Assembly (NCBI RefSeq): GCF_902826915.1
Contig: NZ_CADEGP010000010.1
Span: 1-56,430, forward strand
Direction of reading: 5' to 3'
Length of the DNA: 56,430 nt
Source of the DNA: an uncultured Nitrosomonas sp.
Lineage (GTDB): Bacteria; Pseudomonadota; Gammaproteobacteria; Burkholderiales; Nitrosomonadaceae
The position numbers and the translations under genes are program-made. This document shows, piece after piece, positions 19,711 to 32,181 of the stretch. Position 1 is the stretch's first letter; each line of letters opens with the position of its first letter. The notes under the pieces are model-generated. The model was given only the letters and a program-made list of their open reading frames with translations, did no database searches and had not been told where the DNA came from.

Positions 19711-21360
19711 CTAGCTTATAAAGAAATTGCGCATCATGCCCATATCTTCATGTTCTAAATTGTGACAATGGTAGAGAAATAATCCGTTATAGTCATTAAA
19801 TGGTTTGATGATTTCAATCTCTTCCCCGGGCATAACCAAAACAGTGTCCTTCCAGCCGGTATTAATAAATCCATCTTTGATAGTATCGTACCCACTATCT
19901 TGATGGTTTTGCGTTCGCGATAAGATTTGAAATTGCTGACCATGTAAATGAATAGGGTGCGGTAAAGACATCATCATACCCATGCCACCGCCACCGCCAC
20001 CGCCACCGCCACCGCCACCGCCACCGCCACCGCCACGCATACCTCCGCGTCTGCTTCGATTCTCGTGGAATATTCTGATTTTTTGAATGGTGTTCAGCGG
20101 GATTTTTTCAAGCTCACTGTAGCCGTGCATGTCAAATGTACGACCATTTAATTGGAATGCCATGTGCCGCATACCGATGGCAATAGGAACAGTTTTGTCG
20201 GGATTGGTAATATCATGGGCTGTTAAGCGGCGTATTGGAACAAGTTCGTCTGGCAGTTTTGGTGAATCACTGATTTGTTCGGTGATACGAAAATTGGCAA
20301 TAGAGATAACTTCATCCTGGCCGGATGCACTACCCATCATACCCATTCCTCCGCGATCATGGCGCATTCCACTTCTCATACCAGCAATCATATGTGAAGT
20401 AGATTCCTGATAGGTCAAACTTTGTAGTGTAAGATCAGAGCCTAGTTTACGTCCGCTAAAATCGATCCATAACTCAATACGTTCAGCAGGCGCAAGCATG
20501 ACATAGGGCAAAGTTATTGGTTTTTCCAGTAGTCCGCCATCTGTTCCGATCGCGGTTACAACTGTCCCATCACTCCAGCCTAATTTGTAAATTCTTGAGT
20601 TTGATCCATTCAATATACGCAAGCGGTAGGTTCTGGTTTTTACAGAGATTGTATTGTCTTTTTGACCATTCACAAGAATGATGTCACCCAGGAAACCCCT
20701 TATTCTTTGATGCATGCCAAGAATGTAGCGCAATTGATTGCCACTGGAAAAACTGCGATCCTGAATGACAAGAGGAATATCATATTCGCCGCTGGGTAAA
20801 TCCAGCTTACGCTCAGCTTCATCCGTTATAGTAATGAGTCCAGCCAATCCCTGATATACCTGAGGTGCGGTTAATTCATGCGTATGTGGGTGGTACCAAT
20901 TGGTTCCGGCGGGATTCTTTACCTCAAATTCATACACGTACCGCTCTCCACGATAAATGGCATACATTGGGTGCCCATCCATCAGGTGCGGTACATGCAT
21001 GCCATGCCAGTGAGTGATGCAGGGTTCTGATAATTGATTATAAAAATATATTCGAACATTCTGGCCTTGCTCGAAATTGAGAATCGGCCCTAGGTAGCCT
21101 GGTAGTTCTTTAAGTGTCGTTTGAGGTCCTTTCAGCAATTTTCCGGTGTATTTATAAACATGGGTAAGAGCACCCGGCAGGATAGGGGCATCAGCCGCTT
21201 GAGCCGTCAGTGCGATTTCGACATCAGCCTTAAACGAATTATTGGGTGTCTTGTTAATTTTTCGGTTTTCAGCAAGAACGAAGCCAGGCATCGTGGCAGC
21301 TAGCGTGCTCAATGTTGCATATTGCAGGAATTGACGTTTTTTATAATCAATGTCTGTCAT
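19711..21360 (-). CDS. Multicopper oxidase with poly-Gly segment
   Basis: A 549-residue periplasmic copper oxidase. AGAGG precedes the ATG. The N-terminus KKRQFLQYATLSTLAATMPG looks like a Tat signal with KR in place of RR. Copper ligands occur as HWHGMH (about 118), HPHTH (about 158), HPIHLHG (about 467) and HCHNLEHEDMGMM (about 532) with an axial Met, so all T1, T2 and T3 sites are present. It has two Met-rich stretches, one with HMIAGMRSGMRHDRGGMGMM and one after the poly-Gly, as in CueO-like cuprous oxidases. It probably oxidises Cu(I) or phenolic or metal substrates; CueO-like copper tolerance is the best guess. The poly-Gly run (residues 443-459) sits just before the third copper block. 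Confidence 0.88.
   Translation of the reverse strand: MTDIDYKKRQFLQYATLSTLAATMPGFVLAENRKINKTPNNSFKADVEIALTAQAADAPILPGALTHVYKYTGKLLKGPQTTLKELPGYLGPILNFEQGQNVRIYFYNQLSEPCITHWHGMHVPHLMDGHPMYAIYRGERYVYEFEVKNPAGTNWYHPHTHELTAPQVYQGLAGLITITDEAERKLDLPSGEYDIPLVIQDRSFSSGNQLRYILGMHQRIRGFLGDIILVNGQKDNTISVKTRTYRLRILNGSNSRIYKLGWSDGTVVTAIGTDGGLLEKPITLPYVMLAPAERIELWIDFSGRKLGSDLTLQSLTYQESTSHMIAGMRSGMRHDRGGMGMMGSASGQDEVISIANFRITEQISDSPKLPDELVPIRRLTAHDITNPDKTVPIAIGMRHMAFQLNGRTFDMHGYSELEKIPLNTIQKIRIFHENRSRRGGMRGGGGGGGGGGGGGGGGGMGMMMSLPHPIHLHGQQFQILSRTQNHQDSGYDTIKDGFINTGWKDTVLVMPGEEIEIIKPFNDYNGLFLYHCHNLEHEDMGMMRNFFIS
19985..20032. repeat. Hexanucleotide microsatellite (CCACCG) x 8
   Basis: Eight perfect copies of CCACCG in tandem, plus a partial ninth. 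On the coding strand they read alternating GGT and GGC, giving 17 Gly in a row in the multicopper oxidase. Gain or loss of a unit would add or remove two Gly without a frameshift. Confidence 0.97.
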
Positions 21361-21564
21361 GATTAACCTCTCGCGCTACAACGAAAAAACTTGTGTGTGG
21401 TTTGGAAACTAAGCTTATATCCAGTACTCTGGATTCTAAGAATAACAGCTTTCAACTCAACTGTAATTTAACTGTAATTCAGAAAATAGCGTACTAAATC
21501 TGACAAAATAAGTATTAGATCCAGATCAAAGAAAGCTAATGTTATTAATTATAACTTTTCCGAT

Positions 21565-21921
21565 GTGATGGCGCGTGTTCAGCATGTGATCAAAACGGTT
21601 GAGCCGCACGATTCAGTTGAGCGCTATACCCAATTAGGCGTCGAGGTATTGCAAGGCAAAGCTCGAATTACTTCACCGTGGTCGGTGGAGATCAACGGAC
21701 AATCCCTGACAACACGCGCCATTGTCATTGCCATCGGTGCACATCCGATGGTGCCGAAAATCCCGGGACTGGAATCCGTGCGTTATTACACTTCTGATGC
21801 GCCCTGGTCACTGACCGAACGTCCGGGGCGCTTGATTGTGCTGGGTGGCGGGCCGATAGGCTGCAAACTGGCGCAAGCATTTGCCCGGTTAGATCTTGGT
21901 TTTATCAAGCAGAGTCAGTAG
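21565..21921 (+). pseudogene. Fragment of a mercuric reductase-like FAD/NAD oxidoreductase
   Basis: The sequence ERYTQLGVEVLQGKARITSP, then AIVIAIGAHPMVPKIPGLE, and the Rossmann motif VLGGGPIGCKLAQAFARL are typical of the middle part (roughly residues 100-220) of pyridine-nucleotide disulphide oxidoreductases of the mercuric reductase/dihydrolipoamide dehydrogenase group. The N-terminal FAD-binding and redox-cysteine region is missing, with unrelated sequence before it. Homology ends at about 21895, where the transposase remnant begins. It cannot make an active enzyme. The reading frame itself is clean, so the truncation may be fairly recent. Confidence 0.8.
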
Positions 21922-22572
21922 TGATTTCAACAGCTAAACCAAGCCATTATTATCAACCAGCGTATGCTGTTTATAACCAAACACAGATTTACCATTTTTT
22001 TTAACCCAGCGTGCTTCTGCATCTACGCCGGGTTGAGCAACTTCAATAACGCGCATAGCCGCTTTCGCCTCTGCTTCATCGTCTCGATTCTCCCGATCTG
22101 CAACCATTTCATACAATGGCCTGGTCTTTGGTTTACGCGGGCTGTGCGTGATACTGGCGTCGACGTGACAGCCCTGAGTCACCATGATGTCGTGCCCTTG
22201 GATCTGTTGATTGATCTTCTTCAGCAAATCATCCCAGGCATGCGCTTGTGGTAATCGTGTCCTGAAACGAGACAGTACCGAATGATCTGGAACATCGTGT
22301 TCCAGATTTAGGCTCAAAAATCGCATTACGTACATTCGCGTTAGCCATGTCTTCAACGGATCATCACTGAGTCCACCGTGCCAGATTCTTGCCAGCAACA
22401 TCTTGAACAGCAGCAACCCGGGATAGGCAGGACAGCCTGCGGCATCATATGTGGGGGCATAATGTTCAGCGATTGCTTTTTCTATCGGTTCCCAATCAAT
22501 CAGGTAATCGATTTGATTAAGAAAGTTTCCTTTGCGGGTGCGGCGGGTGACATCAAACTTAGAAAAACTCAT
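21900..22572 (-). mobile_element. Truncated IS5-family transposase remnant
   Basis: The 212-residue frame (stop at 21934) starts SFSKFDVTRRTRKGNFLNQI and continues with DHSVLSRFRTRL and CHVDASITHSPRKPKT, as in IS5-type transposases, which are normally 320-340 residues. The first catalytic Asp is in the HVDAS block. The frame then breaks at VDNNGLV. A few bases later another frame reads SLLTLLDKTKI, which resembles a segment about 20 residues further on, so there is a small deletion plus frameshift. The remaining third with the second Asp and the catalytic Glu is absent, replaced by the oxidoreductase fragment. No terminal inverted repeats can be defined because one end is lost. It is inactive. 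Confidence 0.85.
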
Positions 22573-23113
22573 ATCAATTAACTCAACAATATGATTTAGA
22601 ACATTATTATGTCATCATTCACACCTGAAAATGACTCTAACCGTGCAAAGCTCTTTCCTGGTCGACAGGATCAGCAAAAACAAAATACTTATTCTTACCA
22701 TCAAATGCTTGGGAGTACTTCAGGGGCGACTAGATAATCCATCTCGATAAAATTCTTTACGCTGAGTGTAAATGTTGTTTATTGTGCACAAGCTTGAATC
22801 ATTTGTGAATTTCTTCGATAAATCGATAGTGACCAGTTGAATATTCGCTTTAAATATACTTAAATGACCAGTGCAATTGAATATGCATTACTTGTAGATA
22901 TGGGAAAGTGTTTGTATTGCGCCAGTAAAATAGAAAATACACTGTAGTTATTGCGTTTTATTACTAATGAAATATCGTAAATGTGATGTATGGTGTCAGC
23001 TCATGCTATTAACCAATTCATTATCTTATTAATTTTTTGAGTAATTACGAATTGCTTGAAAAATTCAATTAAATGTGGATACGGTAAATTTTAAAACCAA
23101 ACTGGGTGATTCT
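22573..23113. other. AT-rich intergenic region beside the IS remnant
   Basis: About 540 bases without a supportable gene. A 30-codon open frame on the minus strand (22640-22729) reads YSQAFDGKNKYFVFADPVDQ in its middle and looks protein-like, possibly a second decayed gene, but it is too short to name. A near-direct repeat occurs at 22830-22844 (TGACCAGTTGAATAT) and 22865-22884 (the same with GCAA inserted). The promoter of the downstream acyltransferase cluster must lie here, but I cannot point to it. Confidence 0.4.
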
Positions 23114-23884
23114 ATGAGTGATTTGTATCAAAACTTTCAGAAATTCTTTGAACTTGTTGTCGCTGATACCGCTGAGCTGTTGGAGCATGTTTATAGGATT
23201 CGCTATCAGGTATTGTGTGTTGAACAACGTTTGCCTGGCTTTGATCCGATGCTGTGTCCGGATCAGAAGGAAATGGATAGTTATGATAGTCACTCATCAC
23301 ACATTCTTTTGCGTTATCGTCCTTCCAAGGCATATATTGGTACCGTAAGACTGATTTTGCCTGACTCATCCAGGCCCGAGAAGCTTCTGCCAGTACAGTT
23401 GTATGGACAACTGGATCCAACGCTATGTGATGTCAAAGCGTTGCCTCGCCAACATACTGCTGAAATTTCACGTTTCCTGGTTGTCAGTCAGTTTGATCGG
23501 CGTAGGGGAGACCGTCGCAAGCAAAACGAAGAAATCGACGGGGAAAAAAGAGAAGTGCAAGATCGGCGTTCCTCTGATCGTCGCTCTTCGCTTAGTATTG
23601 GATTGGTGCTTATGGCGGGCGTCATGCGCATGTCAGTCAAATATGACATCAGACATTGGTTGTCGGTAGCAGATCCTGCGCTAAATAAATTGATGGGTTT
23701 TTATGGTTTGAACTTTAATCCGATTGGCCCCCCGGTTGATTATCACGGTATTCGCAGGCCTTATTATGTGAAAGTAGAGGATGCTTTGGAAAGAATGTAT
23801 GAAGTACACCGCGGCGCATGGGAGGTTGTGACCGATAATGGTGAATATAACCTCAATCATTACTCATTAATGGAACATCCTTAA
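23114..23884 (+). CDS. PEP-CTERM/exosortase system-associated acyltransferase
   Basis: A 256-residue GNAT/autoinducer-synthase-fold protein. The hallmark parts are the N-terminal YRIRYQVLCVEQRLPGF, the central YIGTVRLILPD, AEISRFLV, and a C-terminal NPIGPPVDYHGIRRPYY. These match the family that accompanies exosortase (EpsH) and PEP-CTERM exopolysaccharide loci. The ATG at 23114 is preferred over an in-frame GTG 13 codons upstream. Between AEISRFLV and the next strand there is a charged insert (residues about 128-158) with repeated DRR motifs. The real acyl substrate is unknown. No exosortase or PEP-CTERM protein is seen in the window, so partners must be elsewhere. It lies 16 bases before the PstS-like gene. 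Confidence 0.85.
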   Translation: MSDLYQNFQKFFELVVADTAELLEHVYRIRYQVLCVEQRLPGFDPMLCPDQKEMDSYDSHSSHILLRYRPSKAYIGTVRLILPDSSRPEKLLPVQLYGQLDPTLCDVKALPRQHTAEISRFLVVSQFDRRRGDRRKQNEEIDGEKREVQDRRSSDRRSSLSIGLVLMAGVMRMSVKYDIRHWLSVADPALNKLMGFYGLNFNPIGPPVDYHGIRRPYYVKVEDALERMYEVHRGAWEVVTDNGEYNLNHYSLMEHP

Positions 23885-23900
23885 ATTAGGGACTTGTTTC

Positions 23901-24386
23901 TTGAATTTACTTCATCTTTTAATACAAGCTCGAATATCAAGCTACCTTTTGTCAAGAGCCAGATCATACTTTTGGTTTGTGATATTTGTCGGCCTTTTAG
24001 GTGTTAAGGCTGATGCCAGGGCGAATGATCATTTTGAGATTGTGACCAACCCGAATGTCAGTGAAGTGGCGCTTTCGGCTAACTCATTGCGCTCCATTTT
24101 TAGTATGAGCCTGAAAACTTGGCCGAATGGAACCAAGATTCGGGTATTCGTATTGTCCGATGATGATCAATTGCATAAAGCGGTTTCGAAGGGAAAACTG
24201 AATGTATTTCCTTATCAGTTAAGGTCCACCTGGGATCGTTTAGTATTTTCGGGTACGGGTCAGGCGCCTGTCAGAGTTAATTCAATAGAAGAGATGCTTG
24301 ATAAGGTTGCCAATACCCCAGGGGCGATAGGTTATTTGTGGAGAGCCAATATTAATGAAAATGTTAACGTGCTCCAGATTAAATAG
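23901..24386 (+). CDS. PstS-like periplasmic phosphate-binding-domain protein
   Basis: A 161-residue secreted protein. After a hydrophobic signal (about residues 24-42, ending ADARA) comes a single short domain: FEIVTNPNVSEVALSANSLRSIFSMSLKTWPNGTKIRVFV, with a central STWDRLVFSGTGQAP and a C-terminal PGAIGYL. This is the small PBP-like fold related to PstS that often precedes porins. It is about half the length of transport PstS, so it may bind an anion without serving an ABC importer; no pst transporter genes are adjacent. The start at 23901 is a TTG with weak ribosome site; another TTG at 23947 is possible. Its last 32 bases overlap the porin gene, so the two are co-expressed. Confidence 0.72.
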   Translation: MNLLHLLIQARISSYLLSRARSYFWFVIFVGLLGVKADARANDHFEIVTNPNVSEVALSANSLRSIFSMSLKTWPNGTKIRVFVLSDDDQLHKAVSKGKLNVFPYQLRSTWDRLVFSGTGQAPVRVNSIEEMLDKVANTPGAIGYLWRANINENVNVLQIK

Positions 24387-25770
24387 CTACTTTGGCAATC
24401 CATCCAAATGGGTTGCCAAGGGGGTTATTTTGTTATTTGTGATTGGAAATGTTTCTGCTCAAGCTCAGGAATCTCCAACGCAAAAACAATCTGAATTGAT
24501 CAGGCCGCGTAGTGAAAGGTTGAGAAGTACAGATTTACTTGCTCAAGCTACCGAGACTGAGGTCAGTAGTGTTACCGAAAAAACCGGATTGGTAAGTACT
24601 GCGATGCAATGGTTACGTTCGACAGACCGCCCAGGGGATTTACAGTTTCATGGCTTTGTCAGCCAGGCTTATATCACAACTTCCGATAATGATGTTTTTG
24701 GAAATAGTGACAAAGGTGGTAGTTTCGGTTTGACTGAAGCTGGATTCAATGCTTCGGTGCGGCCGCTTCCGAGGCTGCAGTTGTCGGCGCAGGTGTTGTC
24801 ACGTCGTGCTGGTGAAGGAAATTCGGGTGAGCCGCGCCTTGATTATGCTATTTTCGACTATCAGTTGTATGCTCACGAAGCAAACCAATTTGGTATTCGA
24901 GTGGGTCGATTGAAGAATCCCTTCGGTTTTTATAATGAAACCCGAGATGTGGCGTTTACGCGCCCCAGCATTCTTTTGCCACAGTCGATCTATTTTGATC
25001 GCACTCGAAATTTGGGGCTTTCAAGTGATTCGGTGCAACTCTATGGTGATACTGCGGTGGTTGATTGGGGTACATTTTCTGCCCAATTTGGCATAACGTT
25101 GCCAGTTGTAGGTGATAAGGACACTGAAAGTTCGCTTCTTGGTGATGTACGAAAAGGGCATTTAAATCGAGAAATCTCGTATATTGGTCGTGGAATATTT
25201 GAGACGAATGACAAGCGTCTTCGTTTGGGTATCAGTGGAATATGGCTGAATACATCCTACGATCCTAATAACCGATTGAATGATCCCTTGGGACCAGGTG
25301 CATTGCAGTTCACACCAGTGATTTTTTCTGCCCAGTATAATGCAGAGCGGTGGACGTTGACTTCCGAATATGCGATACGTCCCTTCGACTATAATAATGG
25401 TTTTAGAACGCCGCCAGCCCCCCGGGGACTCAACGGGATAGACATCGTTGGCGAGAGTTATTACTTCCAGGGTGAATATCGTTTTACTCCAAAATGGGAA
25501 GGTATTGTACGGTATGATGCTCTATTTACTGATCGATCTGACCGAGACGGAAGTGAATTTGCAAAGATTTCTGGCGGAATATCTCATACACGTTTTGCCA
25601 AAGACATTACCGTAGGCTTACGCTGGAATGTTACTCCGGCGTTCATGCTGCGTGCTGAATATCATTATGTGAATGGAACTGCTTGGCTATCAAGATTGGA
25701 TAATCCATCGCCTTTAGACACAGAACAACACTGGCATCTTTATGGGATTCTGGGTTCTTATCGTTTCTAG
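24355..25770 (+). CDS. Outer-membrane porin-like beta-barrel protein
   Basis: A 471-residue protein with a signal peptide (about 21-38, ending VSAQAQ). From about residue 95 it shows alternating amphipathic strands: LQFHGFVSQAYITTSDND, GFNASVRPLPRLQLSAQVLS, FGIRVGRLKNPFGFYNETRD, then VGLRWNVTPAFMLRAEYHYV. It ends with the C-terminal SYRF, the Phe signature read by the BAM assembly machinery. It is probably a specific or general porin; anion selectivity (OprO/OprP-like) is suggested only by the PstS-like neighbour. Start overlaps the previous gene by 32 bases; GGAGAG lies 11 bases upstream. The c-di-GMP enzyme begins 11 bases after its stop. Confidence 0.78.
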   Translation: MKMLTCSRLNSYFGNPSKWVAKGVILLFVIGNVSAQAQESPTQKQSELIRPRSERLRSTDLLAQATETEVSSVTEKTGLVSTAMQWLRSTDRPGDLQFHGFVSQAYITTSDNDVFGNSDKGGSFGLTEAGFNASVRPLPRLQLSAQVLSRRAGEGNSGEPRLDYAIFDYQLYAHEANQFGIRVGRLKNPFGFYNETRDVAFTRPSILLPQSIYFDRTRNLGLSSDSVQLYGDTAVVDWGTFSAQFGITLPVVGDKDTESSLLGDVRKGHLNREISYIGRGIFETNDKRLRLGISGIWLNTSYDPNNRLNDPLGPGALQFTPVIFSAQYNAERWTLTSEYAIRPFDYNNGFRTPPAPRGLNGIDIVGESYYFQGEYRFTPKWEGIVRYDALFTDRSDRDGSEFAKISGGISHTRFAKDITVGLRWNVTPAFMLRAEYHYVNGTAWLSRLDNPSPLDTEQHWHLYGILGSYRF

Positions 25771-25781
25771 GCAGGTTCCTG

Positions 25782-28682
25782 ATGGAAACTAATTCCGGGG
25801 TTAAATTGGAAAAAGCGTCTATTGTACCGAACTATCAGGGCCGCAGGTTCCGCAGCCTGAGATGGAAAATTTCATTCAGCAGCAGTTTGATATTACTGGC
25901 CGTTGTGATGCTGTTTTGTTTTGTTAGCTATCTGAGTTTGATGGCTAATTTTGACAATCAGCGAGAGGATGATTACCGGCGGTATTCCAGAGAAGTCAAT
26001 AGTTTGATCCAGAATACTACGCAGAATTTATATCAGCTTGCTGAAATGATTCCGTTTCTGGATGGCATGAAAAAAGCTTTGTTGATGAATGACGAGGAAA
26101 CCATTAGCAATGCTTTTGATGCACATTGGGCGTTGCTGCAATTTCATAATAGTGTTGAATTCATTCATTTTTATAACCCATCGAATCAACTGAGCGCCAG
26201 TTGGGATAGTTTGGCTGCCAATATCGATGATGGTATTTTACTGTCGGATTGGGTGGGTCAGGTTAATCAATCCGAACGGCCGATAAATCCGTTACTCTGC
26301 CGGGAAAGTTGTATCCAATACATCGTTGCGCCTTTGCTGGTAGAAGGAAAGAAAGCGGGTGTCGTCGTCATGGGAATTTCTTTGGCGGATGTGCTTTTAG
26401 CTTTTAAGCGGTTATCCGGTGCCGATATGGGGTTGTTGGTCAAGGAGCCGGATAGTTTACAAAATGGCGATTCTGATCTCTTGTATTGGAATATCTATAT
26501 TTCAGCACTGACCAACAAAGAAAGAAATCTTGAGATTCTCAAAAAGGCGGCTCAGAACTATAAAGATATGACTGCACTGAGCGATGGCGCTCAGGTTCAC
26601 CGGAATGATCAGTATTTTCAATTAAAAGTATTTCCACTCAATTCATATGAGCTAGATAAAGCTCATTTGGTTGTCATCATGGATGTTACGGCTGCAGTAA
26701 TTAATATTCATGATTCAATCTGGAAAATTGCATTAATCGGTTTGCTTGGGCTAATTTGCTCTGAGATTTTGTTATTTTTTATTTTTACCAGGCTATTGGC
26801 AAAGCTCAAAGATGTCGCGTTTGTACTCCCGCTTCTTGCCAATGGACAGTTTGAGAAATTCCGCTTATCGCTGGCCTCTACAGGTCGTGTGCAACGTTTC
26901 CGAGATGAGGTCGATACGTTGTCGGAAGCGGCTGTGTCTTTATCGCTGCAGCTGGAAAAACTACAGCAAGAAGTATCAAGCCGTACCGCAATGCTTATTG
27001 AACAAAAGAATGCACTCAGTAAAGAACGAGATTTTGTGAAGAATTTACTAGATACGGCGCAGGCGATCGTATTAACACAGGATTCTGACGGCGAAATTAT
27101 GTCATTAAACGCTTATGGAGAAATGCTAACTCGTTATTCGGAAGGTGAATTATTTGGTAAATCTTTTCTGGATATCTTAATTCCGGATTATGAATTGCAT
27201 GACTTATTTTTCCACATTCAAGAAGTTCATGCCGGACAAAGGATGCAATTGCGCCATGAGGCTATTACACATTGTAAAGATGGAACAACACGTCATGTCG
27301 CTTGGCTGCATTCTCATTTGCCCCGGAATTCTCCCGGCGAGCCGTCAATTTTATCAGTCGGTCTGGATGTTACCGAGTATAAGCGGGTTGAAGGGCATTT
27401 AGCTTGGCTAGCGGATCATGATCCGTTGACTAATTTGTATAACCGGCGCCGTTTTAGTGAAGAGTTGGAGCAGGTGCTTAGTCGGGCTGAACGGTATGAC
27501 CATCCAGGTGCGTTGTTATTTTTTGATTTGGATCGCTTTAAGTATATCAATGATACCAGTGGGCACCAAGCCGGCGACACGTTGCTTAAAATGGTTTCAA
27601 GCATGCTGGCGCAAAACATTAGGGCGGATGACATTACAGGGCGTCTGGGAGGAGATGAGTTTGCGATTATTTTGCCGGAAATTAATGCTAATGGGGCGAT
27701 AGGCGTCGCTAAGAAGGTACTGGATCAACTGAGTTTGGCACAATTAACAATCAATAATCGTACCCATAAAATTTCGGCCAGCATCGGGATTGCCTTATTT
27801 CCAGAACACGGCGCCAATATACATGATTTGCTGGCGGCGGCTGACCTTGCCATGTATCAGGCAAAAGCGATGGGGCGGAATGCCTGGTACCTGTTCTCGG
27901 ATAAAGACAGCAGTCGCGAACGCATTCATACGTTGGTGTATTGGAAAGAGAAGATCGAATACTCGCATGTACATGATAATTTTATATTGTATTTACAACC
28001 GATTATGCATGTTAAATCGAAAGAAATTTCACATTATGAAGTATTGCTGCGCATGCAAGACATCGATGGCACGGTGCTATCGCCGGCAGACTTTATTCCC
28101 GCTGCAGAGCATACTGGGTTAATTCATGCAATTGATCATATGGTATTGCGCAAAGCCATAGCGCAAGTGGCTGAAATTTACCAGGCTGGATTTAAAGTTA
28201 ATTTTTCGATTAACCTGTCTGCGCATGCCTTCAATGACCCTGAATTGTTGCCTATACTTAAGGCAGAATTGACATTGCATGAAATGGATCCGGCATGTTT
28301 GATGTTTGAAATCACTGAAACAGCAGCGCTTGAAGATTTGCCTGGAGCGCGCGGATTGATGGTGGAAATTATAGAATTAGGATGTGGCTTTGTGTTGGAT
28401 GATTTTGGGGTTGGTTTTTCGTCGTTTTATTATTTGCGGGAATTGCCGGTTGAGGTTGTCAAAATTGATGGCTCGTTTATACGTAACTTAAGCGAGAATA
28501 GTGATGATCTTATTCTGGTGAATGCACTCTGCAGTGTTGCAAGAGGTTTTGGCAAAAAAATTACAGCTGAATTTGTCGAAAGCGCAGAAATACTTTCCTT
28601 GATAGAGAAAATGGATATCGATTATGCTCAGGGGTATTACATAGGGAAGCCAGCACCTGCAAGTCAATTTCTGACGAAATAG
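25782..28682 (+). CDS. dCache-PAS-GGDEF-EAL membrane c-di-GMP enzyme
   Basis: A 966-residue inner-membrane signalling protein. Domains in order: TM1 (about 31-53); periplasmic Cache-like sensor (54-307) with CRESCIQYIVAPLLV and GADMGLLV motifs of the dCache_3 type; TM2 (about 309-335); coiled linker; PAS (about 417-540, DSDGEIMSLNAYGEM); GGDEF (about 545-705) with GGDEF at 623-627 and an inhibitory RxxD site (RADD, 614-617) five residues before it; EAL (about 720-960) with E753-V-L, DDFGVGFSSFYYL and KIDGSF. Both catalytic halves look intact, so it could make or degrade c-di-GMP according to a periplasmic ligand. It is the third gene of the PstS-like/porin operon, and that context suggests its ligand may be the same small molecule. 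Confidence 0.9.
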   Translation: METNSGVKLEKASIVPNYQGRRFRSLRWKISFSSSLILLAVVMLFCFVSYLSLMANFDNQREDDYRRYSREVNSLIQNTTQNLYQLAEMIPFLDGMKKALLMNDEETISNAFDAHWALLQFHNSVEFIHFYNPSNQLSASWDSLAANIDDGILLSDWVGQVNQSERPINPLLCRESCIQYIVAPLLVEGKKAGVVVMGISLADVLLAFKRLSGADMGLLVKEPDSLQNGDSDLLYWNIYISALTNKERNLEILKKAAQNYKDMTALSDGAQVHRNDQYFQLKVFPLNSYELDKAHLVVIMDVTAAVINIHDSIWKIALIGLLGLICSEILLFFIFTRLLAKLKDVAFVLPLLANGQFEKFRLSLASTGRVQRFRDEVDTLSEAAVSLSLQLEKLQQEVSSRTAMLIEQKNALSKERDFVKNLLDTAQAIVLTQDSDGEIMSLNAYGEMLTRYSEGELFGKSFLDILIPDYELHDLFFHIQEVHAGQRMQLRHEAITHCKDGTTRHVAWLHSHLPRNSPGEPSILSVGLDVTEYKRVEGHLAWLADHDPLTNLYNRRRFSEELEQVLSRAERYDHPGALLFFDLDRFKYINDTSGHQAGDTLLKMVSSMLAQNIRADDITGRLGGDEFAIILPEINANGAIGVAKKVLDQLSLAQLTINNRTHKISASIGIALFPEHGANIHDLLAAADLAMYQAKAMGRNAWYLFSDKDSSRERIHTLVYWKEKIEYSHVHDNFILYLQPIMHVKSKEISHYEVLLRMQDIDGTVLSPADFIPAAEHTGLIHAIDHMVLRKAIAQVAEIYQAGFKVNFSINLSAHAFNDPELLPILKAELTLHEMDPACLMFEITETAALEDLPGARGLMVEIIELGCGFVLDDFGVGFSSFYYLRELPVEVVKIDGSFIRNLSENSDDLILVNALCSVARGFGKKITAEFVESAEILSLIEKMDIDYAQGYYIGKPAPASQFLTK

Positions 28683-28743
28683 TGATTAATGATCCAGGCG
28701 TAGCAATTGTCATAGCTTATTCGACAGACATTTATCCAGAATA

Positions 28744-29787
28744 ATGGTAAATCAATGGAGCGATATCAGCGCGGGATTTCGCAACCGTAGGATTCTTCGG
28801 GTCTTGCTGACCGTGTTGGCGTTCTTGTTCATTCATCCCGTATTTGCGGATAAGGTTACCGGTATTTTCTCTGCACAGCAGTCTTGCCCAGCCTTTGTTT
28901 CAAAAAATAAGTCGACCAACCCGGATAATGCACAAATTGTGGTGGGCAATCAGTATGAGATTATCGAGGTTATCAATCCAAATCACCCTGTCTGGTATCG
29001 AGTTGTCTTACCCAATGTAAATCCTAAAGCGCGATGGGTAGGTGCGGCATGTGGTCAGGCACATTTATCAGGCCAAAGCTCGAAAGTTAACGGAAGTGGC
29101 GAGGGAGGTAATGGCTGTAATGTTGCAGGTGAGGCGGATAGCTATGTGCTGGCACTGTCTTGGCAACCTGCTTTCTGTGAAACTAAATCAGATAAACCGG
29201 AATGTAAAATTTCAGATCCGCATGCTTATCAAGCCAGGCATTTTGCGTTACATGGTTTATGGCCGAACAAAAAAAACTGTAATAAAAATTATGCATTTTG
29301 CGGTTCAGTAAAAAAGAAGGAAGATGAGTTTTGTGATTATCCGGTCGTTCAATTGGGTGCCGCGTCTCAAGTATCACTGGCCGAGGTAATGCCCAGTGTG
29401 GTAGCTGGTTCTTGTCTGGAGCGGCATCAGTGGCATAAGCATGGTACCTGTCAGGGAAACTGGTCAGTGAGTGAATTTTTTGATGTATCTGTTGATTTGG
29501 CTCGGCAATTTAATGATTCCGGCATGGCTTATTTTATGAATCGCAGGATTGATCAACAGGTACGTACCGAAGATTTTCTCAATCGCTTGGGAGTGGTTTT
29601 GGGTTCTGCTGCCAGAGACCGAATTAAACTGGATTGTAATCGGCAAGGAATGCTAATGGAAATTCAGTTGAGTTTGTCAGCTGAGTTAATCCCAGGTGCT
29701 GATCTTGAAAATCTGATCATGGATGCGCCAGTGCAAGAAAAATCCAATTGTGGAGAAACTTTCCGGGTTGATCGCATTGGGCAATAA
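28744..29787 (+). CDS. Secreted ribonuclease T2 with N-terminal SH3-like domain
   Basis: A 347-residue protein with a signal peptide (hydrophobic 18-35, cleavage at FADK). Residues about 37-105 form an SH3-like module (VGNQYEIIEVINPNHPVWYRV). Residues 125-345 are an RNase T2 domain: CAS I HGLWP with catalytic H170 and CAS II HQWHKHGTC with H228 and H233. The CAS II position that is usually Glu is Gln (Q229). Many cysteines suggest disulphides and periplasmic or extracellular location. T2 enzymes cut RNA through a cyclic phosphate and can scavenge nucleotides and phosphate. That role would fit the PstS-like and porin genes just upstream, although the 61-base gap leaves co-transcription open. 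Confidence 0.85.
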   Translation: MVNQWSDISAGFRNRRILRVLLTVLAFLFIHPVFADKVTGIFSAQQSCPAFVSKNKSTNPDNAQIVVGNQYEIIEVINPNHPVWYRVVLPNVNPKARWVGAACGQAHLSGQSSKVNGSGEGGNGCNVAGEADSYVLALSWQPAFCETKSDKPECKISDPHAYQARHFALHGLWPNKKNCNKNYAFCGSVKKKEDEFCDYPVVQLGAASQVSLAEVMPSVVAGSCLERHQWHKHGTCQGNWSVSEFFDVSVDLARQFNDSGMAYFMNRRIDQQVRTEDFLNRLGVVLGSAARDRIKLDCNRQGMLMEIQLSLSAELIPGADLENLIMDAPVQEKSNCGETFRVDRIGQ

Positions 29788-30270
29788 CCCTCGTCCAAGG
29801 AAAAGCAAAAATTACCCACGGCAGATTTCAGTTTAATCTCGATATCTGCAGAAGATTAAACTAGATTTAGGCATGTTTCTTTATTGCGAAATACCGCCAT
29901 AATTGTCGTCAGTTCTCCTGTTTACTATCCTGTGCGTATTTTATAATACCAAATAAAGTAGGGTTAATCAGATGGTCTTTCGGTTACTGCTGCTCAAAAA
30001 ATAACATTTAGATATTTCTTCTCGGGGTAGGAAAATTGGTTTTCTATTTGTAAGATTATTATGAAAAATACTCAGAACCCCGTAGTTATATATACAACAG
30101 ATGAGTTTAGTCCGGATATTTAGTATCAAAAAGGATTCAGGTGGTTGTGAGTAATTGAGTGACAAACTTGAAATTTATTGTAAGCGGTTAATTTTAGATC
30201 ATTAAGCTTATGTTATTGCTTATATTTATGCTGCTAGAGTTTCAGTCGGGTAATGGTATGGAGTGGTAAT
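29788..30270. other. Intergenic region before the diguanylate cyclase
   Basis: About 480 bases, AT-rich, with no gene I can support. Apart from the inverted repeat at 29830-29862 I see no named site. The promoter of the following diguanylate cyclase must be here. Confidence 0.4.
29830..29862. repeat. Perfect 10-bp inverted repeat
   Basis: AGTTTAATCT (29830-29839) and AGATTAAACT (29853-29862) are exact reverse complements around a 13-base spacer, 43 bases after the RNase T2 stop. No T-run follows, so it may be a weak terminator, an RNA processing hairpin or an operator. Confidence 0.6.
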
Positions 30271-32181
30271 ATGAATCAATTTGCTAATGCTAGTCCATCC
30301 GTGATCGCTCGTGAGACATTAAAGCAGCTTGCGATACTCAAAATACAACCTACTCCCGAAAATTATCTTAAGCTATACAATAAAATCGCAGGTAATCCAG
30401 ATAATAATTTATCTGGCATTACTGCAAAAATGCTCCTAGAGCTGGCGAAAGAATTTCCGTGTCACACGCCGAATCTACTTAATTGTGTTAATAACTTAGA
30501 GCAGGCTGTCAAAGATAACAACTGGCATAGTTATAAATCTGTATTGATAAAATGTGTTGCGACTGTAACAGGTTCTACCACGACTGCTTCACCGATTGAT
30601 ACTGCGCAATCTATACCTGGAGCATCCTGGGTAAAAGTTATTAACAGCTTATTCGATGATGTCGTTAGTTCGGAGAAATTTTCTGAAAGTGCAAATAAAA
30701 GAAAAAAAATAAAACAGATGCTAGTTGAATTTTCTGGCAGTCCTGAACTTATTCATAGTGAATTAATGGCATTAGTTCAGTCGTGGAAGTCCTCGAATTG
30801 GGCTTTTCAAGAGTCAGAAGGTAATGTCGAAAATATATCGATATCAGCATCAGGTGCAAATTCTTCTATGCAAAAATCACATTTCAAAGAAGATATTCTG
30901 GCGCAAGAATGTGAAATCAGCAGCTATACAGATCAGTTGTTAGAATTGCTGGCACAGATTCTAGATCAAATTATTGCTAATCAGGTTGCAGATAAGATTC
31001 TGGCAGACGAAGCTAGATCTTTAGGTAAGCAGGTTAAAAAAATTCAAAGTAAGCTAGCAATGGAGCAGTTTATCGCCAGCTTTCGGAAATTTTGTATTAG
31101 GCTAGAATTGGGTAATGAAGACAAAACGAGTATACAGCAGGGCTTGCTTAATTTGTTAAACATGCTGATGGATAGTACAAGCGAATTATTGTCGGAAGAT
31201 CAGTGGATTAAAACGCAGATTTCCAAGCTGAAGAAAGTCATGTCTAAGCCATTGGATATGCAGCTAATAGCGCAAGCTGAATTTTCGCTCGAAAAAATAA
31301 TACAGAGACAGGCCAAAGTAAAGCAAAGCCTGAACAAGACAAGGGAAACCATGCGGCAAATGGTAGCCTCACTAATTTCCAATCTTGAGGAACTTTCAGA
31401 TGCCACGGGTGGGTATCATGAAAAATTAGAATGTTATTCCGAAAGAATCAGTAAAGCTAATAATATTGAAGATATAAATCAATTACTTACTGAGATAATG
31501 CAAGAAACTAAAAAAGTGCAAAATAATGTGCTTAATCATCGCAATGATCTGGCATTTGTGCGCGCAGAAATTGACGAAGCACAAAATCAAATCAATCAGC
31601 TTGAAATACAATTGCAAGAAATGAGCGAACAAGTGCAAGAAGATCATCTCACAGGTGCATTGAATCGACGAGGATTAGATACTGCATTTAAACGTGAGGT
31701 TGTACAGTTAACTCGCAGCGAGGGAACACTCTGCTTTGCTTTATTGGATATTGATAATTTTAAACAGTTAAACGATACGCATGGGCATCATGTGGGTGAT
31801 GACGCGTTGAAATACTTGGTTGAGGCAGTCAAAGAAACTGTGCGCCGGGATGATGTAATATCACGCTATGGTGGAGAGGAATTTGCAATTTTGTTACCTA
31901 ATTCCGGGTTAAAAACGGCGATATCAACGGTTGCAAGGATACGGCGCTATTTAACCAAGAAATTCTTTCTGCATGGAAATGATCGATTGTTGATTACATT
32001 TAGCGCTGGTGTTGCGCAATTGCAGCCGGGGGAATCACAGGATAGCTTGTTCAAGCGAGCTGACGAAGCGTTATATTTTGCTAAAAGAAATGGCAAGAAT
32101 CAGATTGTTGCAGCCGAAGAGACTGTCACAGCCGCTGAAGATTGTAAAAGCCAGAATAAAGATTCAGTTAGCACTGTTTGA
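30271..32181 (+). CDS. Cytoplasmic diguanylate cyclase with coiled-coil N-terminus
   Basis: A 636-residue protein that makes c-di-GMP from two GTP. The ATG at 30271 is chosen because GGAG lies 7 bases before it; an ATG 6 codons upstream is also in frame. The N-terminal 460 residues have no TM segment and are mostly helical, beginning SPSVIARETLKQLAILKIQP and TPENYLKLYNKIAG, a start shared by a betaproteobacterial group of diguanylate cyclases, and ending in a long coiled coil (HRNDLAFVRAEIDEAQNQIN). The GGDEF domain starts at DHLTGALNRRGLD; the active site is GGEEF at about 534-538 with RxxD (RRDD) five residues before it, so product inhibition is expected. The gene stands alone. Confidence 0.9.
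   Translation: MNQFANASPSVIARETLKQLAILKIQPTPENYLKLYNKIAGNPDNNLSGITAKMLLELAKEFPCHTPNLLNCVNNLEQAVKDNNWHSYKSVLIKCVATVTGSTTTASPIDTAQSIPGASWVKVINSLFDDVVSSEKFSESANKRKKIKQMLVEFSGSPELIHSELMALVQSWKSSNWAFQESEGNVENISISASGANSSMQKSHFKEDILAQECEISSYTDQLLELLAQILDQIIANQVADKILADEARSLGKQVKKIQSKLAMEQFIASFRKFCIRLELGNEDKTSIQQGLLNLLNMLMDSTSELLSEDQWIKTQISKLKKVMSKPLDMQLIAQAEFSLEKIIQRQAKVKQSLNKTRETMRQMVASLISNLEELSDATGGYHEKLECYSERISKANNIEDINQLLTEIMQETKKVQNNVLNHRNDLAFVRAEIDEAQNQINQLEIQLQEMSEQVQEDHLTGALNRRGLDTAFKREVVQLTRSEGTLCFALLDIDNFKQLNDTHGHHVGDDALKYLVEAVKETVRRDDVISRYGGEEFAILLPNSGLKTAISTVARIRRYLTKKFFLHGNDRLLITFSAGVAQLQPGESQDSLFKRADEALYFAKRNGKNQIVAAEETVTAAEDCKSQNKDSVSTV

Follow-up and report, generated by a model that had tools for sequence, protein, structure and literature searches.

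A block of four genes on the forward strand was found in a contig of an uncultured Nitrosomonas sp. (NZ_CADEGP010000010.1, here C10; 56,430 nucleotides). The whole contig was analysed and is called the window; its closest named loci are those of Nitrosomonas sp. and N. ureae. The block encodes an exosortase-type acyltransferase, a small periplasmic-type protein whose predicted structure is one lobe of PstS (half-PstS in what follows), an outer-membrane porin, and a membrane receptor with GGDEF and EAL domains. It belongs to a real and widespread gene module. In Nitrosomonas and many other bacteria, half-PstS and the porin stand together, often beside a signalling enzyme or a chemoreceptor, and likely form a relay with it, by which an outside chemical would change the attachment signal or the swimming of the cell. 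For the block itself we consider a more specific reading to have an even chance: half-PstS docks on the GGDEF-EAL enzyme and sets the level of cyclic dimeric GMP (c-di-GMP) by a solute that the porin admits.

The open reading frames (ORFs) of half-PstS (23901-24386), the porin (24355-25770) and the receptor (25782-28682) bear out the arrangement given in an earlier note on this DNA: the first two overlap by 32 bases, and 11 bases separate the second from the third. Half-PstS starts with a TTG codon and has 161 amino acids, the mature part being approximately residues 43-161. The porin (471 amino acids) matches Porin_O_P (PF07396) with 27.3 bits against the cut-off of 20.9, in agreement with its earlier assignment, yet the match covers only 81 residues (360-440). 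The receptor (966 amino acids) has the Pfam domains dCache_3, PAS, GGDEF and EAL. The first of these (25980-26696) is the periplasmic Cache-like sensor that the note had described. The catalytic residues reported as intact are indeed present, as RADD-x5-GGDEF in the GGDEF domain with its RxxD site (27411-27881; PF00990, 168.5 bits) and as the signature E-V-L in the EAL domain (27972-28652; PF00563, 215.3 bits). The observation that no ABC importer lies alongside also holds: none, PstCAB included, was found among the seven genes of 21565-32181 scanned with Pfam, the remainder of the window having been viewed as ORFs only.

The gene order is conserved, as follows from the genome survey that the note had proposed. 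Half-PstS occurs in 37 of 61 related genomes, namely in 35 of 37 from the same genus (34 with E < 1e-20) and in two of 24 outside it, both of the latter being weak matches. The 33 named loci comprise 30 from Nitrosomonas or its near kin (Nitrosomonas-type loci) and three others, L060 (Rhabdochromatium), L062 and L063, labelled gammaproteobacterial, whose receptors have only 25-45% identity. The porin adjoins half-PstS in all 33, and the order half-PstS, porin, receptor is kept in all 31 loci that extend past the porin (in L046 and L054 the sequence stops at or within it).

The module was then sought in the whole class. A profile (A1) built from 20 sequences matched 82 of 370 class genomes in 121 places; 80 stretches from these places (L093-L172), mostly top-ranked, were examined. 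L060, L062, L063 and the places with at least 97 bits form the near group, which has 35 places, 33 of them distinct (L062 and L109 are one contig taken twice, as are L063 and L116). The remaining 53 places form the distant group. In the near group the order is mostly half-PstS, porin, receptor; in the distant group the porin mostly precedes half-PstS. A porin gene on the same strand within 400 bases was found in 30/30 Nitrosomonas-type, 34/35 near and 47/53 distant places, versus 1/386 control genes drawn from the same loci; the porin profile was built from the surveyed loci and therefore favours finding porins there. For a signal gene encoded no more than 3.7 kb away on the same strand, the corresponding values are 26/30, 25/35 and 25/53, versus 65/386 controls. 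Counting distinct near places, a porin is present in 32 of 33 and a signal gene in 24 of 33. The gene caller and the profiles for porins, methyl-accepting chemotaxis proteins (MCPs) and kinases were home-made from these loci, and Pfam scans agree with them for the partners tested. A survey at the phylum level retrieved half-PstS in 103 of 397 genomes, with neighbourhoods read for L201-L213 only.

The four Nitrosomonas-type loci lacking a signal gene are contig ends. Among the ten such near places, the contig ends too early in L093, L094 and L062/L109, although the sensor domain is still visible in L062/L109; the receptor of L099 is on the opposite strand, and L108 comes first in a tandem pair. 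For the other four (L114, L119, L120, L122) no explanation was found.

The half-PstS/porin pair is common to chemoreceptors, kinases and c-di-GMP enzymes. Among the near partners scanned with Pfam (20 of 23, L096, L104 and L105 being left out), dCache_3 was found in 18, GGDEF in 18 and EAL in 16, and two are hybrid kinases; the receptor of L111 was examined in detail by Pfam. All 17 distant chemoreceptor partners have HAMP and MCPsignal domains, mostly with no named sensor domain. Eight distant partners have GGDEF, seven of them with EAL and five with dCache_1. Six annotated plasmid records were also read. Two Pseudomonas aeruginosa plasmids carry genes for an MCP, a porin and half-PstS; a Pseudoalteromonas xiamenensis plasmid has the porin and half-PstS with a divergent MCP; and a Caballeronia plasmid has a 378-amino-acid protein matching the home-made porin profile, half-PstS and an EAL protein. 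The other two records have no annotated porin beside half-PstS, one with an MCP encoded on the other strand and one with no receptor in the stretch. In five of the six records half-PstS is labelled a phosphate ABC transporter substrate-binding protein. The record with no receptor in the stretch, from an Alteromonas mediterranea plasmid (L196, NZ_CP018030.1), has the half-PstS gene and an ORF of 386 amino acids beside type IV CRISPR genes csf1-3 and csf5.

Half-PstS matches PBP_like_2 (PF12849) with 25.2 bits, just below the cut-off of 27, and only over profile positions 92-187 of 267. Residues 43-161 are predicted to fold as one lobe of PstS, and the two lobes and hinge of PstS-type binding proteins are not found. 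The phosphate contacts of PstS (Arg135, Ser139, Thr141) are replaced: they align with Leu85, Asp89 and Leu91, the register at this stretch being a reading of a profile alignment with probability 90.5. Thus the description of the protein as anion-binding-like fails at the residue level. The string R-x3-S-G-T (residues 113-119), which does not vary among the 20 sequences of the profile, was considered as the phosphate motif of PstS and dropped, because profile alignments place the motif near residues 85-91. His92 (codon at 24174-24176) is near-invariant, being kept in 29/30 Nitrosomonas-type and 29/32 near sequences; arginine or lysine replaces it in 45/53 distant ones. Fusions of half-PstS were rejected: the long frames are mostly stop-to-stop and overlap the porin, and two others have no second Pfam domain. 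In L163 (2300-7700), a PstS-like protein of two-lobe size (297 amino acids), a GGDEF-EAL protein, a porin and half-PstS lie in a row on one strand, which brings the full and the half form side by side in one locus.

The sensor domain of the receptor is predicted to have a LuxQ-like fold. It would thereby resemble receptors that are read via a docked binding protein. LuxQ itself is not among the Pfam matches listed for the receptor. The domain also contains a C-x3-C pair (Cys173 and Cys177, 26298-26312), conserved in 25/25 Nitrosomonas-type and 20/22 near receptors, that may be a disulphide, metal or redox site. In N. ureae Nm13 (L032, 9913-12812) the GGDEF and EAL domains are in different frames, either by a true split or by a sequence error.

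In the proposed relay, the porin would let an outside solute in, and half-PstS would bind to the periplasmic, LuxQ-like part of the GGDEF-EAL enzyme, so that the solute would decide whether c-di-GMP is made or degraded. Because a single lobe is unable to close on a ligand alone, the missing half of the site would be supplied by the receptor, by a second half-PstS copy, or by the porin. The porin and half-PstS would be the constant core and the receptor the exchangeable part, its place being taken elsewhere by chemoreceptors and hybrid kinases. The relay would act on attachment and on the extracellular matrix, which would fit the presence of an exosortase-type acyltransferase among the four genes. 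Docking of binding proteins on chemoreceptors, on kinases and on GGDEF-EAL enzymes is established in those parts of the literature that were available. Two observations lowered our estimate from slightly above even to even: the LuxQ-like prediction is a near-tie with Cache domains that bind ligands directly, and there are places with no receptor next to half-PstS and the porin. Of the uptake-and-sensing module put forward in the note, the conserved block of porin, binding-type protein and sensor is supported, with a sensor predicted to be LuxQ-like; phosphate as its theme is not supported.

Another role for half-PstS is that of a porin partner in the first place, as a plug, gate or assembly helper, with the receptor, if present, reporting the state of the porin and not a free ligand. 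Adjacency to the porin is near-invariant, a receptor is often not found, and at many loci, the window included, the half-PstS and porin genes overlap. Protein distances bear on both this role and the relay. In 41 loci all of them correlate, as expected from shared descent. In favour of the relay, the half-PstS distance in 17 gammaproteobacterial loci tracks the periplasmic part of the receptor given the catalytic part (partial correlation 0.47) and not the reverse (-0.02). In favour of the porin partner, the half-PstS distance tracks that of the porin about equally (partial 0.44 in these loci and 0.62 overall, given the cyclase). This co-variation is suggestive only. However, joining to three receptor classes is expected of a docking binding protein, and to our knowledge no PstS lobe works with a porin. 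We regard this role as unlikely.

Sensing of phosphate or a related anion, admitted by the porin, presented by the PstS-like protein and answered by the sensor, is unlikely as well, and phosphate has little support as the ligand. The predicted PstS fold and the match to the phosphate-porin family, seen for the window porin and for five of 18 porins scanned, are consistent with it. Ser89 in 21/53 distant sequences, together with arginine or lysine at position 92, makes an anion site possible in the distant group. On the other hand, half-PstS has a single lobe with the contacts replaced, and at least four full-length PstS-family proteins are encoded elsewhere in the genome. The phosphate-porin type is not shared by all porins of the wider family: 14 of the 18 scanned have a porin-family match, eight to the general Porin_4, five to Porin_O_P and one to BBP2, and these counts may overlap. 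Finally, the RNase T2 gene, which the note had viewed as an output of the module, directly follows the receptor in only two (L031, L032) of the 24 Nitrosomonas-type loci with a listed gene there, and was rejected as a part of the block.

The acyltransferase (23075-23884; TIGR03694, 251.7 bits against the cut-off of 111.95) is a conserved fourth gene of the block; the note had viewed it as an upstream addition with a polysaccharide output. It ends 16 bases before half-PstS in the window and immediately precedes it, in the same orientation, in 27 of 30 Nitrosomonas-type loci, with gaps of -47 to 280 bases. The other three are contig ends: L037 has a cut piece, and the contigs of L041 and L061 start at or in the half-PstS gene. 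TIGR03694 is, we assume, the acyl amino acid synthase family described by Craig et al. (2011). Papers on the family, as far as their accessible text goes, describe its members as N-acyl amino acid synthases.

This gene raises the question of a self-made signal: the acyltransferase would make an exported N-acyl amino acid, to be read by the porin, half-PstS and the receptor, which would set c-di-GMP accordingly. Operons with genes for a signal synthase, a binding protein and a receptor of the GGDEF-EAL kind provide the model for such a circuit. An acyltransferase was found within 4.6 kb in 28/30 Nitrosomonas-type, 11/35 near and 0/53 distant places; of the 11 near ones, eight are upstream, half of them on the same strand and half on the opposite one, and three lie beyond the receptor. 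TIGR03694 exceeds its cut-off in 20 of 30 genomes with a near-type operon, the window's included. It does so in 27 of 184 class genomes as well; 14 of the 184, assigned by our own reading of genome handles, carry the operon and account for eight of the 27, leaving 19 of 170 operon-free genomes. The resulting odds ratio of about 16 ignores relatedness, which weakens it as an argument. In eight of the 19 TIGR03694-positive operon genomes besides the window's, the only copy over the cut-off adjoins the operon; in the window the acyltransferase has stayed with the block despite a transposase upstream, while the exosortase-associated ligase lies on a different contig. Elsewhere, an N-acyl amino acid synthase fused to PilZ ties such enzymes to c-di-GMP, according to the available part of one report (PMC4897644). 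However, ten of the 30 operon genomes have no copy over the cut-off, and eight of the 19 carry copies only away from the operon. In L031 the acyltransferase comes after genes for an exosortase-A-associated ligase and decarboxylase (TIGR03098, TIGR03099), and thus may serve the matrix only. A long acyl chain would also fit a porin and a PstS lobe poorly. On balance we consider the self-made signal improbable. The same holds for the most far-reaching view: a new class of envelope-spanning sensors across Proteobacteria, with a dedicated porin and a lobe that completes its ligand site only on the receptor, feeding chemotaxis, kinase or c-di-GMP outputs. In Nitrosomonas the N-acyl amino acid made by the first gene of the operon would then close a quorum-type loop.

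That the genes are merely co-regulated neighbours, uptake genes and a Cache receptor sensing the same nutrient directly with no physical contact, would suit the near-tie of the sensor fold but is improbable, as no inner-membrane importer was seen with the pair and the order is conserved while the receptor is swapped.

No Rfam family reached its gathering score within 21300-30300, and promoter- and terminator-like patterns were at the level of shuffled sequence only. A stable hairpin of 14 pairs (24390-24421) lies just past the half-PstS stop codon, within the start of the porin gene; of 17 sequences folded, only those of the window and L031 have all of it and that of L032 has a part, and it was rejected as a conserved element. 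Upstream of the block, an apparent transposase gene (21934-22572, reverse strand) stands beside a piece of a pyridine nucleotide-disulphide oxidoreductase gene (21565-21921); this site corresponds to the position of the exosortase-A-associated genes in L031. A multicopper-oxidase-like ORF, also assigned by look (19711-21360), holds a run of about 17 glycines. Downstream, a second GGDEF protein of 642 amino acids (30253-32181) has long coiled-coil-like matches and no EAL; it is present in L031 and L032 too.

The whole half-PstS family is predicted to be one-lobed. A porin is nearly always encoded next to it, and exchangeable receptors often join it. The phosphate transporter label, under which the module is present in many genomes, is misleading. 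If docking is true, the module would be a simpler coupling of outer-membrane entry to signalling and a candidate outside input to c-di-GMP in ammonia oxidisers, with the acyltransferase as a testable link to matrix formation.

No description of a half-PstS/porin/receptor module was found in the open-licence literature for the terms searched, and several known systems share parts of it. ScrABC of Vibrio parahaemolyticus likewise combines, in a single operon, a signal-making enzyme and a periplasmic protein with a GGDEF-EAL receptor. However, ScrA is a pyridoxal-phosphate-type enzyme, whereas the first gene of the block encodes a GNAT-type acyltransferase, and ScrABC is not known to include a porin. 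In P. aeruginosa the PstS fold is read by a transmembrane receptor, the chemoreceptor CtpL; that PstS is full and has its own importer, whereas half-PstS is one lobe with no phosphate contacts. LuxP is two-lobed and LuxQ is a kinase, whereas the block has one lobe and a GGDEF-EAL enzyme. NspS-MbaA of Vibrio cholerae and Sinorhizobium, whose NspS binds polyamines with two lobes and is unlike PstS, is not known to include a porin gene. As far as the accessible text of PMC8967002 goes, this system has a binding-protein gene overlapping or adjoining that of a bifunctional GGDEF-EAL receptor, MbaA carries the same EVL signature, and docking of the periplasmic protein sets receptor activity, a precedent for the proposed relay. 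Here too a periplasmic-protein gene lies near a membrane GGDEF-EAL gene, with the porin gene between them in all 31 loci that extend far enough. Solute-binding proteins are described as two-lobed in the available part of PMC9602780. Among systems of binding-protein-relayed signalling, the novel features of the present module are its single lobe and its constant porin.
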